Below are positions 1-36,978 of a DNA stretch of 64,000 nucleotides, piece by piece. A program made the translations under genes and the position numbers. The DNA comes from an uncultured Gemmatimonadales bacterium. Lineage in GTDB: Bacteria > Gemmatimonadota > Gemmatimonadetes > JACCXV01 > JAHWKZ01. The notes beneath the pieces were generated by a model, which saw only the letters and a program-made list of their open reading frames with translations, was not told where the DNA came from and did not search any database. Within the stretch, counting starts at the first letter, position 1. Every line of letters starts with the position of its first letter. The stretch is taken from NCBI GenBank assembly GCA_947259315.1, contig CAMYLR010000006.1, forward strand, positions 180,452 through 244,451. The letters are read 5' to 3'.

Positions 1-1187
1 TGACATCACCGTTGGGAGTGAAGATGAAGATCTCGTCTTTGTAGAGATCGATATGCAGGTATTCGAGAAACTCTTCGGGATCCGTCATGTCCTGTTGCCA
101 ATCCAGAATCTGACTGAACCACGCCAGCTGCTCGTCGAGCTGGGTCCCCGTCCGACCCTCCTTGTACTTCCAGTGCGCCGCGATTCCAACCTCTGCTGTC
201 CGATGCATGTCCCAAGTCCGGATCTGTATCTCGTACAGTGTTCCGCCTGGACCGAACACGGTCGTATGTAGTGACTGGTACATATTGGACTTCGGCGTGG
301 CGATATAGTCCTTGAAACGCTCGTGGACGGGCGTCCACAGCGTGTGAATCAATCCTAAGACGTGGTAGCAGTCGCGGACTGTCCTGGTAAGCACGCGAAT
401 AGCCAGGAGGTCGTAGATCCCCTCGTATGGTTTCTGTCGAGAGACCATCTTCTTTTGAATCGACCAGAGGTGCTTGGGCCGACCCGTCATCTCGGCCTCG
501 ATGCCGGCCTTCTCGAGCTCTTCCTCAAGCGGCTTTGCGATAGCGGCAATCATCCGTTCGCGTTCTTTCCGCTTCGCCTTGACCTGCTTGACCAACGAGC
601 GGTACGCGTCCGGCTCCAGGAATTTGAAAGAAAGGTCCTCCAACTCCCACCGGATCTTTGCCATTCCGAATCGATGGGCGAGCGGCGCATAGATGTCGCG
701 GGTCTCACCAGCGATTCTGAGCCTTTTCTCGGCTGGTAAGAACTCCAGCGTCCGCATGTTGTGCAGGCGATCCGCGAGCTTGATCATGATGATTCGGAAG
801 TCGCGAGCCATCGAGAGCAAGAGCTTGCGGTAATTCTCGACCTGGCGCTCTTCACGAGATCTGAACTTCAGGTGGCCGATCTTGGTCACGCCGTCGACGA
901 GCTGCGCGACATCATCACCGAAATCGGATTGGATCTCTTCGATCGTTGTGTCGGTGTCCTCGACGACATCGTGCAGCAGCGCGGCTGCGATCGTATGCGA
1001 GTCGACCAGATTCAGGTCGATGAGGATGCCCGCTATCTCTGTGGAGTGTGAGATGAAAGGATCGCCAGAAAGGCGCTTCTGACCACCGTGGGCGCACTCT
1101 CCAAAATCGTAGGCGCGCTCGATCAGCTGGAGATCTAGTCGCTCCGCATGTGGTTCGAGGGACTCAAGGAAGGAGTCTTTATCCATG
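1..1187 (-). CDS. rel: Bifunctional (p)ppGpp synthetase/hydrolase (RelA/SpoT family), C-terminus cut by window edge
   Basis: Makes and degrades the alarmone (p)ppGpp in the stringent response. The minus-strand reading frame is open from ATG at 1185-1187 to the window edge, about 395 codons. The HD hydrolase domain has HD at residues 72-73 followed by VVEDT, and the distal ADRLHNMRTL motif, so hydrolysis looks intact. The synthetase domain follows, with YDLLAIRV (metal-binding Asp), RFKDYIATPK and EIQIRT (catalytic Glu). The RFKD form (not EFDD of monofunctional RelA) is typical of bifunctional Rel/SpoT enzymes. The TGS and ACT domains lie outside the window. A small unknown gene ends 18 bases upstream on the same strand and may be cotranscribed. 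No strong Shine-Dalgarno is visible. Confidence 0.95.
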
Positions 1188-30909: not shown

Positions 30910-32183
30910 GCTGGAAATCTGGATCCGGGCTCGTCTTGCCGCCAGATGACTTCCCCGCTCTTGATCGTAGCCGCGCAATGACCCATCCCATAGTGATAGG
31001 CCAGGTGGCGATAGTCTGGCACTCCGAACAGGGCGACGTCGCCTCCGGCACCCGGTATCAGAGTACCAAGGTCCGAGCGTCGAAGCGCCATCGCTCCGCC
31101 GCGGGTCACAGCGCGCAGCGCTTCTCCGACGGTAAGACCCAAAAAACAACACCCAAACGTCACCATCAACAGCAGATTCTGGGTCATCGATGTGCCCGGG
31201 TTGAAGTCAGTCGCCAACGCCAGGTTGGCGCCACGGTTAGCCAGCTCACGAGCAGGAGCATGGCGATCGAGACGCAGGAAGAACGAGGTTCCAGGCAACA
31301 GCGTGGCCACCGTATCGCTGCCCGCAAGAGCGTCGATGCCAGCTTCGTCGACCGCTACCAGATGATCGACGCTGGCGGCTCCCAACTCGACCGCCAGTTG
31401 CGTGCCACCCAGCGGTACGAACTCGTCGGCGTGGATCTTCAGCCCAAACCCGAGCTTGGCAGCCTGCCTCAAGATCGTTTCTGCCTCGTCCCGGGTGAAA
31501 GCTCCACGATCGCAGAACACGTCGCAGAACTCGGCCAGCGACTCAGTGGCTACCGCCGGCAACATTTCGTCAACGATCAATCGCACGAACGCCGCCCGGT
31601 CGTTGGCGAACTCGGCCGGTAGAGCGTGTGCACCAAGGAATGTCGGCACGAGCCGCGGCAGCTTGGGCTCCGCCGCCAGGCGCGCCACCACTCGCAGCAT
31701 CTTGAGCTCTTGCTCTGTGGCCAGTCCATACCCCGATTTCACCTCCACAGTGGTGACCCCGAAGTGAGCCGCGGCGGCTAGGCGCGGCCGCGATAAGAGT
31801 ACGAGTTCGTCCTCGCTTCGAGTTCGCAGATCGCGCACGCTGAACCCGATGCCGCCTCCTTGCTCGGCGATCTCCTCATAGCTGGCACCAGCCAACCGTT
31901 GCTCGAACTCGTGCTCTCGGGTGGCGCCAAAGACGGCGTGCGTGTGCGAGTCGACGAGTCCCGGCAGTGCTACCTGGCCGCCAGCGTCGAACACCGGTGT
32001 GCCGGTCGCATCGCCAGGCAGATCCACCATCGGGCCGGTGGCGGCGACCCGACCGTGCCGTATCCACACAAACGCGTCACCTACGACCTCGAGCGGCGCC
32101 GAGAAGGCACCCTTACCCGGGTCCACGAGTTGTCCGATATCGGTGATCAGAAGATCGCCGCCGCTGGCGGCGGCGTCGGTCAT
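30906..32183 (-). CDS. hutI: Imidazolonepropionase
   Basis: Third step of histidine breakdown: hydrolyses imidazolonepropionate to formiminoglutamate. The metal site starts with [50 protein letters not shown] and [11 protein letters not shown] follow, all typical. 425 residues. Its start overlaps the hutU stop by four bases. hutH and a formiminoglutamase are not in the window. Confidence 0.96.
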
Positions 32184-33853
32184 TGCTGCGGGTCGATCAT
32201 CGGAATCTGAACACCACGCGCCGCAGCCGCGGAGCGAGCCTCAGGGTAGCCGGCGTCGACATGTCGCGCGATCCCGATGCCGGGATCGTTGGTCAACACG
32301 CGCTCGAGTCGCGCTCCACCCTCGGCTGTCCCATCGGCGACCGTGACCTGACCGGCATGCAAACTGTTGCCGATCCCGACCCCACCACCGTGGTGGACCG
32401 AGACCCACGACGCTCCGCTAGCGGTGTTCAGCAACGCGTTGAGGATGGGCCAATCGGCGATCGCATCGGAGCCGTCAGCCATTCCTTCGGTCTCGCGGAA
32501 CGGCGACGCCACCGATCCAGTGTCCAAGTGATCGCGACCGATGACCACTGGCGCTGTCACCGCGCCGCTCGAAACCAGGTCGTTGATGCGCTCACCCAGC
32601 TTCCAGCGGTCTCCATATCCGAGCCAACAGATACGAGCCGGCAAGCCTTGAAAGGCGACTCGCTCGGCGGCTAGCCGGATCCAGCGCTGGAGGGGCGCAT
32701 CGGTCGGAAACAACTCGGCGATCGCACGGTCGATGACGTGTATGTCGGCCGGGTCACCGGAGAGAGCGGCCCATCGGAACGGTCCCTTGCCCTCGCAGAA
32801 CAGTGGCCGGATGTACTCCGGCACAAAGCCTGGGATCTCGAACGCATTCTCGACACCCGCATCGAGCGCCTGGCCACGTAGGTTGTTGCCATAGTCGAAC
32901 ACGACCGCGCCAGAAGTTTTGAGATCGAGCAGGCCGCGGCAGTGAATCGCCATCGACTCCATGGCCCGGCTGACATAATCCTCGGGATCTTGAACCCGTA
33001 ACGTGGCCGCCTCAGCCAGCGTCAGACCGGCTGGGACGTACCCCTCGAGTGCATCGTGCGCGCTGGTCTGATCGGTGACTACGTCGGGTACGACCCCGCG
33101 GCGAACGATCTCGGGCACGATCTCGGCGCAGTTTCCAATCAGGCCGATCGAACGCGCCTCCCCCCGAGCGGTCGCGGCCAGCACCCGATCGAGCGCGGTG
33201 TCGAGATCGTCGGTGATCTCATCCAGATACCGCGTCGCCACCCGGCGCTCCAACCGTTTGGGGTCGACCTCCACGATAAGACAGGCGGCCCCGTTCATCG
33301 TCGCCGCGAGGGGTTGTGCACCCCCCATTCCACCGCAACCACCGGTCAGCACCCAACGACCTTCGAGCGCCCCGCTGAAGTGATGCTCGCCGACCGCGGC
33401 AAAGGTCTCGTACGTCCCTTGTACGATGCCTTGGGTGCCGATATAGATCCACGATCCAGCGGTCATCTGACCGTACATCGTGAGACCTAGAGCCTCGAGG
33501 CGGCGGAACTCGTCGGCTGTCGCCCAGCGCGGTACCAGGTTGGCGTTGGCGATGATCACCCGTGGGGCCCACGGGTGGGTCTGAAACACGCCGACGGGCT
33601 TCCCGGATTGAACGCACAGCGTCTCGTCGTCGGCGAGTCCCTCGAGCGATCGGACGATGGCCTCAAAACACGTCCAATCACGGGCTGCGCGACCCGATCC
33701 GCCGTACACGACCAACCGATCGGGATCCTCGGCGACCTCCGGGTCGAGGTTGTTCATGAGCATCCGCATGGCCGCTTCCTGGTGCCAACCGCGGCAACGA
33801 AGCGTGGTGCCACGCGGCGCTCGAACGGCTCGCGACTGGGTAACCGGTGTCAT
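32180..33853 (-). CDS. hutU: Urocanate hydratase
   Basis: Second step of histidine breakdown: urocanate to imidazolonepropionate, using tightly bound NAD. Visible are [20 protein letters not shown] near the N-terminus, [20 protein letters not shown] (NAD-binding) and [16 protein letters not shown], plus [18 protein letters not shown] near the C-terminus. 557 residues, full length. The ATG overlaps the selD stop as ATGA. Confidence 0.97.
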
Positions 33854-34905
33854 CTCACCACCACCGCTGGTTCATCACGCGTTACGACAACCCCAACGTG
33901 GCGAGCCGCCTCGCAATCAACGGCTTGAAGCGCTGCGATCACTGAATCCGTGTCCTCTCCGGGGATCGCAAGCAGCAAACCACCACTGGTCTGCGGATCA
34001 AACACGACCTTCATCACGCCGTCGGACACAGTTGAAGCGACATCGACTCGTGGTCGATAGTACCGCTCATTCGCTTCTCCACCACCGGGAATGCAACCGG
34101 CCAGAGCGAGTTTTTCGGCGTCCGCGAAGAGTGGCAACTGGGCGGCCTCGAACTGGAGTGTCACCCCGCTCGCGTCGGCCAGTTGAACGGCGTGGCCCGC
34201 GAGCCCAAACCCGGTGATGTCAGTCGCCGCGGTGACGCCAAAATCGAGCGCCACCGCCATCGCCGGTCCGTTTAAAGCTTTCATGGCTACAACCGCTGCT
34301 TCGATCTCGACCGCCGAGCGCTGACCCTGTTTTAGCGCGGTCGTCAAGATGCCGGTTCCGAGTGGCTTGGTGAGGTAAAGCTGGTCACCAACTCCGGCCG
34401 TGGCGTTGGTGACGATTCGATCCGGGTGCGCGGTGCCAGTCACCGCGAGCCCGTACTTGAGCTCCTCGTCCTGAATCGAGTGACCGCCAACCAGCGCGCA
34501 ACCCGCCTCGTGCGCCTTATCGGCACCACCCGTCAGGATGGCGCCCAAGATCTTGGTGTCCAACTCACCGGGCCAACACACCAGATTAAGCGCCGTCTTT
34601 GGTGTGCCCCCCATGGCGTAAACATCCGAAAACGCGTTGGCGGCCGCGATCTGCCCGAATTCGTACCCGTCATCGACGATCGGAGTGAAGAAGTCGACCG
34701 TCTGGATCAGCGCCAAATCAGGTCGAACTCGATACACGCCGGCGTCGTCCAGTGTGTCGTGACCCACCAGCACGTCTGGATCGGTCGGGGGTCGGGGCAG
34801 CATATCGAGCGCATCGCGAAGGTCCTCCGGACTCAACTTGGACGCTCAACCCGCGCACCGGACCTTCTCGGTCAGCTTGGTGATCTCTTCGCTGGTCAGG
34901 TTCAT
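33850..34905 (-). CDS. selD: Selenide, water dikinase SelD, itself a selenoprotein (in-frame TGA at 34846-34848)
   Basis: Makes selenophosphate, the selenium donor for selenocysteine and selenouridine. An ordinary open frame from 34836 lacks the N-terminal catalytic segment. Reading on upstream through an in-frame TGA gives MNLTSEE...[17 protein letters not shown], where U at residue 20 aligns with catalytic Cys17 of E. coli SelD and Lys23 with its Lys20. The upstream ATG at 34905 overlaps the ridA stop as ATGA, matching the junction style of the operon. A hairpin follows the TGA. Later motifs are standard: [52 protein letters not shown]. 351 residues. Confidence 0.93.
34816..34845 (-). promoter_or_regulatory. 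Probable bacterial SECIS element in selD
   Basis: Directly after the TGA codon the mRNA can fold as GCG/CGC, AAG/CTT and GTCC/GGAC stems separated by left-side bulges TCC and TTGA, with apical loop GGA. The loop lies 18-20 bases after the TGA, close to the spacing in E. coli fdhF, and the bulge contains U next to the upper stem. Bacterial SECIS sequences vary greatly, so this is judged from position and shape only. Confidence 0.55.
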
Positions 34906-35282
34906 CTGCTCAGGCGTGCGATGGCATCGATCTCGACGAGGGCGTCCTTTGGGAGGCGCGGGACTTGTACCGTCGAGCGCGCCGGCAGTGGCTCCTCCAC
35001 GACTTCAGCGTAGACCGCGTTGAAGGCTTCAAAGTCCGCCAGATCGGTCAGGTACACGGTCGTCTTGACGACGTCCCGCCAACCGCCACCGGCGGCTGCC
35101 AGTACCGCAGCCAGGTTCTGCAGTGCCTGGAGCGTCTGGGCCTCGATCGTCTCCTTTAGCGTTCCGTCGCTGGTCAAACCGATCTGACCCGCGGTGAACA
35201 CCCACTCTCCGGCGACGATGGCTTGACTGTAGGGGCCAAGCGCCGCCGGCGCTGTTGGAGCCGTTATGGTCGTGTTGGGCAT
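34902..35282 (-). CDS. ridA: RidA/YjgF-type enamine/imine deaminase
   Basis: Hydrolyses reactive enamine and imine intermediates such as 2-aminoacrylate. 126 residues. Family motifs are GPYSQAIVAGEWVFTAGQIGL, the LAVLAAAGGGWRDVVKTTVYL stretch, and the C-terminal PARSTVQVPRLPKDALVEIDAIA with the catalytic Arg. GGAGGGAG precedes the ATG. It opens the selD-hut series, 25 bases after fhs. Confidence 0.95.
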   Translation of the reverse strand: MPNTTITAPTAPAALGPYSQAIVAGEWVFTAGQIGLTSDGTLKETIEAQTLQALQNLAAVLAAAGGGWRDVVKTTVYLTDLADFEAFNAVYAEVVEEPLPARSTVQVPRLPKDALVEIDAIARLSR

Positions 35283-35306: not shown

Positions 35307-36971
35307 TCAGAAAAGGCCGTGAACGGTGCCATCCGCGTCCACCCGCATCGCCTCGGCAGCCGGGCGTCGAGGCAGGCCGGGCATGATCATGATGTCACCC
35401 GTCGCGACGACCAAGAATCCGGCCCCCGCCGATGGTCGTACGTCAGTTACCGAGATGTTGAAGTGACTGGGTCGACCGAGCAACGTCGGGTTGTCGGAGA
35501 GCGAGTACTGGGTCTTGGCGATACACACCGGCAGATCACCGAGTCCCACCTCTTCCAACCGTTTGATGCTGCGCGCTGCCGCCCGGCTGTACTCGACACC
35601 ATCCGCGCCGTAGACACGTTTGGCGATCGTCTCGATCTTCCGCCTGATCGGCCATTCAACCGGATACAACGGCTCGAACTGAGCCTTGCCGCTCTCGGCC
35701 GTCTCAATCACCCGAGCAGCCAGATCGAGACCGCCGTCACCGCCGTCCGCATGGATGGTGGCGCGAGCGGCGGGAACACGCTGGTGATCGCAGAACGCCT
35801 CCACCCGGGCCAGCTCGTTCTCGGTATCGGTGGTGAACACGTTGATGGCTACGACGGCGGGAACCTTGAACCGGGCCACAATATCGAGGTGCGCAGCCAA
35901 ATTGGTGAGTCCGACCTCGAGCGCGCCGAGGTCCTCTTCGGCAAGCGAATCGATCGCCGCTCCACCACTGCGTTTTAACGCCCGGATCGTAGTTACGACC
36001 ACCACCGTGTCGGGCTTGAGCTCTCCATACCGACACTTGATGTCGAAGAACTTCTCAGCCCCCAAATCGGATCCAAAACCTGCCTCGGTCACGCAATACT
36101 CCCCGAGCGCGAGACCCATGCGCGTCGCCAGCAACGAATTGCATCCATGCGCGATGTTGGCGAACGGTCCTCCGTGGATGAAGGCCGGCGTCCCCTCGAG
36201 TGTCTGCACCAGATTCGGACTGAGCGCCTGGCTCAGGAGCAGGGTCATCGCACCGGCTGCGTTGAGGCTCCGCGCGCGCACCGGCTCGCCGTCGTACGTG
36301 TATCCGACGACGATATCGCCCACTCGACGTTCCAGGTCCTCGAGACTGTCGGCCAGGCAGAGGATCGCCATGATCTCGCTGGCGACTGTAATCAGGAACC
36401 CATCCTCACGCGGCACTCCGTGAGCTCGGCCGCCCAGCCCGACGATGATCCCGCGCAAAGCTCGGTCGTTCATGTCCACCGCTCGGCGCCACAAGATCTG
36501 TCGCGGGTCCAAGCCGAGCGCGTTCCCGAAGTGGAGGTGATTGTCGATCATCGCGGCCAACAGATTGTTGGCCGCACCGACAGCGTGGATGTCGCCGGTG
36601 AAGTGGAGGTTGATCTCCTCCATCGGAACCACCTGCGAGTATCCGCCGCCCGCCGCTCCACCCTTGATCCCCATACACGGCCCCAAGGACGGCTCGCGCA
36701 GGCACAGAACGGTCTTTTTCTGTAACCGGTTCATGGCTTGCGCCAGCCCGACCGCGACCGTCGACTTGCCCTCCCCGGCCGCCGTCGGCGAGATACCGGT
36801 CAGCAAAACCAGTCGACCTCTGGCCGGCCGCTTCGCTAGCGCTTCAAGCCTCACCTTTGCGATATGATGGCCATAGGGCTCGATCTCAGTGGGAACGAGC
36901 CCCAGCTCCGAGGCCACGTCGGTAATCGGCCTGAGCTTGGCCGCCTGGGCGATCTCGATATCCGACTTCAT
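35307..36971 (-). CDS. fhs: Formate-tetrahydrofolate ligase
   Basis: Activates formate with ATP onto tetrahydrofolate. The P-loop-like TGISPTAAGEGKSTVAVGL and REPSLGPCMGIKGGAAGGGYSQV are characteristic, as is FHINLHFTGDIHAVGAANNLLAA-like INLHFTGDIHAVGAANNLLA. 554 residues from the ATG at 36971, which has GGTGAGGTGAGG just ahead. It heads the one-carbon and hut series on this strand and follows a decayed gene fragment. Confidence 0.96.
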   Translation of the reverse strand: MKSDIEIAQAAKLRPITDVASELGLVPTEIEPYGHHIAKVRLEALAKRPARGRLVLLTGISPTAAGEGKSTVAVGLAQAMNRLQKKTVLCLREPSLGPCMGIKGGAAGGGYSQVVPMEEINLHFTGDIHAVGAANNLLAAMIDNHLHFGNALGLDPRQILWRRAVDMNDRALRGIIVGLGGRAHGVPREDGFLITVASEIMAILCLADSLEDLERRVGDIVVGYTYDGEPVRARSLNAAGAMTLLLSQALSPNLVQTLEGTPAFIHGGPFANIAHGCNSLLATRMGLALGEYCVTEAGFGSDLGAEKFFDIKCRYGELKPDTVVVVTTIRALKRSGGAAIDSLAEEDLGALEVGLTNLAAHLDIVARFKVPAVVAINVFTTDTENELARVEAFCDHQRVPAARATIHADGGDGGLDLAARVIETAESGKAQFEPLYPVEWPIRRKIETIAKRVYGADGVEYSRAAARSIKRLEEVGLGDLPVCIAKTQYSLSDNPTLLGRPSHFNISVTDVRPSAGAGFLVVATGDIMIMPGLPRRPAAEAMRVDADGTVHGLF

Positions 36972-36978
36972 CCTCACC

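Follow-up and report, generated by a model that had tools for sequence, protein, structure and literature searches.

In the 64-kb stretch of DNA analysed here (the window), which comes from a Gemmatimonadota MAG of 2.4 Mb and 95.8% completeness, positions 33850–34905 on the minus strand almost certainly hold a complete, standard selenocysteine (Sec)-type selD, whose in-frame TGA would be read as Sec to give an active selenide, water dikinase. Support for this comes from the gene itself, from the codon and its conservation, from the Sec machinery of the genome and from a comparative SECIS signal. The first-pass annotation had proposed a selD hidden by the TGA at 34846–34848, and reading through this codon does restore a full SelD, in which it is the single internal TGA. 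The features of the locus are:

33850–34905, minus strand: selD (selenide, water dikinase), 351 residues, predicted Sec at position 20 (TIGR00476, PRK00943, AIRS and AIRS_C, 3u0o)
34846–34848, minus strand: in-frame TGA, predicted Sec codon, aligned with Cys17 of E. coli SelD; TGA in 4/4 covered family genomes
34822–34832, minus strand: putative bSECIS core GUCC-GGA-GGAC, kept in Sec-type and mostly lost in Cys-type orthologues
34806–34847, minus strand: wider hairpin enclosing the core, MFE −14.6 kcal/mol, z −1.04 (not significant by itself)
34902–35282, minus strand: ridA (Rid family), upstream of selD, named by sequence resemblance
35307–36977, minus strand: fhs, formate-tetrahydrofolate ligase-like, upstream in the same run, named by sequence resemblance
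32180–33853, minus strand: hutU, urocanate hydratase-like, downstream of selD, named by sequence resemblance

Without read-through, the ORF caller placed selD at 33850–34836 (minus strand) with a TTG start and 328 aa. Gene calling with table 11 therefore loses SelD residues 1–23 and with them the catalytic N-terminus, as had been claimed from the sequence. In profile searches, the protein scored 372.4 bits against TIGR00476 (curated equivalog cut-off 125) and 321.8 bits against PRK00943 (cut-off 299), and it carries the Pfam domains AIRS and AIRS_C. It is also similar to solved SelD structures, namely 2yye and the E. coli enzyme 3u0o (E 3e-64). In the alignment with 3u0o, residue 20 falls on Cys17 and Lys23 on Lys20, in agreement with the earlier placement of U at Cys17 and a Lys three residues further on. 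A SelD catalytic site calls for Cys or Sec at Cys17 together with Lys20, and U20 and K23 are predicted to supply both. The likeness to the Cys-type E. coli protein extends over the whole length and includes Lys20 and AIRS/AIRS_C, but its Cys17 is Sec20 here and its Cys19 is Ser22.

The gene sits in a fhs-ridA-selD-hutU-hutI run that is probably co-transcribed; the neighbours are named by sequence resemblance. The restored selD ATG (34905–34903) and the ridA TGA (34904–34902) share the bases ATGA, which confirms the four-base overlap noted in the first-pass annotation, and the selD stop overlaps hutU by four bases as well. The ridA/selD overlap recurs in the sister species L016 (ridA 434..817, selD from 814), where the order of the run is also conserved (with the C-terminal part of fhs), and at the family level the fhs-ridA-selD order is kept, for example in L017. 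By protein, the named relatives found are Gemmatimonadota MAGs (84% identity for L016; 66% and 69% for two others).

Next to the sister species, the 19 codons 5′ of the TGA differ by two synonymous and no non-synonymous changes. The TGA itself is present at the same codon in all four family genomes whose match covers it, so related strains do not show the TGC that the first-pass annotation had named as a sign of sequencing error. Of 395 genomes searched across the phylum, 282 have SelD, and the best 150 SelD genes listed comprise 113 with one TGA and 37 with none (Cys). When 96 loci were read directly, a set that includes a few loci from other phyla, the codon was TGA in 59, TGC or TGT in 37, and never any other. 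A chance TGA is excluded, because no non-synonymous change precedes it and it is conserved across the phylum. A conserved in-frame UGA that alternates with Cys among homologues is the pattern that marks a selenoprotein, and on sequence grounds SelD is predicted to be one.

These data bear on two other explanations of the TGA. Translation could stop there and restart at TTG 34836 (or Met 34801), producing a truncated SelD without the catalytic loop and with another function. The downstream frame is indeed open for 328 codons and the hairpin in the window is statistically weak by itself, but we regard a restart as very unlikely: conservation at the protein level covers the 19 pre-TGA codons and the ATG/ridA overlap, Cys occupies the site in 37/37 non-TGA orthologues and the genome has complete Sec machinery (see below). 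On these grounds restart after the TGA was rejected. An error of sequencing or assembly that hides a TGC or TGT, or decay of the gene to a pseudogene, is extremely unlikely. The sequence is from a MAG, TGA is one base away from TGC and TGT, and a Cys codon does occur in 37 orthologues; against this, the same TGA is found in independent assemblies at genus, family, order and phylum level, selD has no other stop or frameshift, and the pre-TGA codons change only synonymously relative to the sister species. Conservation of the TGA among relatives refutes this explanation.

For the Sec-type reading, the first-pass annotation had implied a Sec decoding system in the organism. Indeed, the source genome encodes a tRNA-Sec with a TCA anticodon (UCA; 75.3 bits, above the cut-off), SelA (472 bits) and SelB (372 bits, both above curated cut-offs), on three different contigs. 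Two further genes with a TGA, both from classic selenoprotein families, were found in the same genome. One is a formate dehydrogenase gene, FdhA, at L061:1501–3516 (plus strand), with an in-frame TGA in the context NCSRAUHAPTVAGL; the alignment has Sec (X) at this position in 9t1s and Cys in 7qv7. The other is a SelW-like gene with the motif CAAU (L124, minus strand, ∼1425–1710 of the reversed sequence). Since both were found, SelD has clients besides itself. In FdhA, the TGA is followed by a hairpin with the loop GGUCU. The selenoproteome of the genome was sampled through family searches only, and a family search found no homologue of the selenouridine synthase (ybbB/selU); Sec synthesis is thus the one known use of selenophosphate that turned up. 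Within the 64-kb window, a codon-usage scan judged by eye gave no second TGA-interrupted gene, its top matches looking like ordinary gene ends with another start soon after, or shadow frames. Genome-wide reassignment of TGA to a sense codon (as in codes 4 or 25) would also leave a conserved gene with an in-frame TGA, but it is vanishingly unlikely and is refuted by the use of TGA as a normal stop and by the presence of release factor 2 (prfB/RF2, 488 bits): TGA is the commonest stop (24 of 50 long ORFs in the window) and ends both ridA and selD, the in-frame TGAs among the families searched are confined to known selenoprotein families, and tRNA-Sec is the only UGA-reading tRNA found.

Under the Sec-type reading, a ribosome translating the fhs-ridA-selD-hutU-hutI run would reach the UGA at codon 20, where SelB, carrying GTP and the Sec-tRNA-Sec produced by SelA, would bind the stem-loop just 3′ of it. 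This complex would insert selenocysteine and so avoid termination by RF2. In the finished enzyme, Sec20 with Lys23 would convert selenide and ATP to selenophosphate, which SelA would use to charge further tRNA-Sec; the product would supply at least FdhA, the SelW-like protein and SelD itself.

The stem-loop in this scheme is a putative bSECIS core with a 4 bp stem and the apical loop GGA 17 nt 3′ of the UGA. The published bSECIS model (PMC13188914) specifies a loop of 3–9 nt with G in the first two positions, a stem of at least 4 bp, a distance of 16–37 nt from the UGA and an MFE of −7.5 or lower, and the hairpin fits it, the extended fold having an MFE of −14.6 kcal/mol. A SECIS check had been suggested in the first-pass annotation and its outcome was divided. 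The window's extended hairpin, taken as a single sequence, does not stand out from shuffles (z −1.04; 26/200 fold equally well). Across genes, a G[G/U]-loop hairpin occurs in 59/59 Sec-type and 7/37 Cys-type genes at a stem energy threshold of −2.5 or lower, which was chosen after the window's own stem had scored −2.5. When no threshold is applied, the median stem energy is −10.2 for Sec-type and 0.0 for Cys-type genes (p 3e-14, a value that ignores relatedness). Within the RCAG subgroup, 23/28 Sec-type and 3/27 Cys-type genes keep the proximal stem, and the Gly codon whose third base lies in the stem is GGT in 19/19 and 5/27, respectively, a synonymous-site difference. A tree-based test placed about five of seven independent pairs in the expected direction and none in the opposite one (median p 0.06). 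The signal of this putative element is therefore weak in the single sequence but convincing by comparison across genes.

Across the 395 Gemmatimonadota genomes, 282 had a SelA match. Both SelD and SelA are present in 259, each occurs alone in 23 and neither is found in 90 (Fisher p 1e-44, ignoring relatedness). SelA is present in 101/113 TGA-type genomes; among the 12 with no SelA match, eight have SelB and the remaining four are 80–85% complete. SelA is likewise present in 36/37 Cys-type genomes, lineages that presumably retained the Sec machinery for other proteins. The earlier view that the enzyme must contain selenium in order to supply selenium was therefore overstated: the Cys and Sec forms of SelD are regarded as equivalent in function (PMC4561486), and with Cys versions filling that role the circularity is not strict.

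With residue 20 masked, the tree of 96 SelD proteins implies a minimum of 11 Sec/Cys changes, of which seven are forced by well-supported branches. Sec-to-Cys conversions of SelD, along with Cys homologues in which SECIS remnants persist, have already been described (PMC1794560), and this phylum is similar in mixing both types and in having some Cys-type genes that keep the stem; what differs is the larger number of changes inside a single phylum. Cys-type L048 lies next to Sec-type L047. A SECIS-like stem is retained at the proximal position in the Cys-type genes L048, L058 and L077, and a retained stem in some Cys-type genes suggests a recent Sec-to-Cys change. Two SECIS placements occur in the phylum: proximal, with the loop ∼17 nt after the UGA (f1, f2, f4 and f10), and distal, with an AGGUC-type loop at about +31 to +33 nt (f3, f6 and f8). 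Although the f10 SelD groups with f3, f6 and f8 in the protein tree, its SECIS is of the proximal form. We tentatively propose, at slightly less than an even chance, that the SECIS moved to another place within the coding sequence, with the UGA remaining in use throughout; alternatively, a new SECIS element may have arisen, or selD may have been transferred. The loci that contrast in placement are L093–L097 (f10) and L100–L123 (f3, f6, f8).

Among selenoproteins, Sec-type SelD is both common and well known (PMC4561486, PMC13188914), and it makes up 19% of prokaryotic SelD genes in a reference set, with Sec always at the same position (PMC4561486). The Gemmatimonadota gene resembles the Sec-SelD/SPS2 of many bacteria and archaea in its family, its Sec position, the bSECIS-like hairpin after the UGA and the accompanying selA, selB and tRNA-Sec, and it differs in nothing essential. 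What differs is the host, an uncultured Gemmatimonadota lineage, and the setting, as selD lies in the fhs-ridA-selD-hutU-hutI run and does not adjoin selA/selB or ybbB. The gene is thus an ordinary one that adds a case to a long-known, common enzyme form. In the literature searched, we found no paper on Sec decoding in Gemmatimonadota. These results show widespread Sec decoding in Gemmatimonadota, with SelA in 282 of the 395 genomes searched, and in many of these genomes table-11 gene calling would truncate SelD and remove its catalytic residue.
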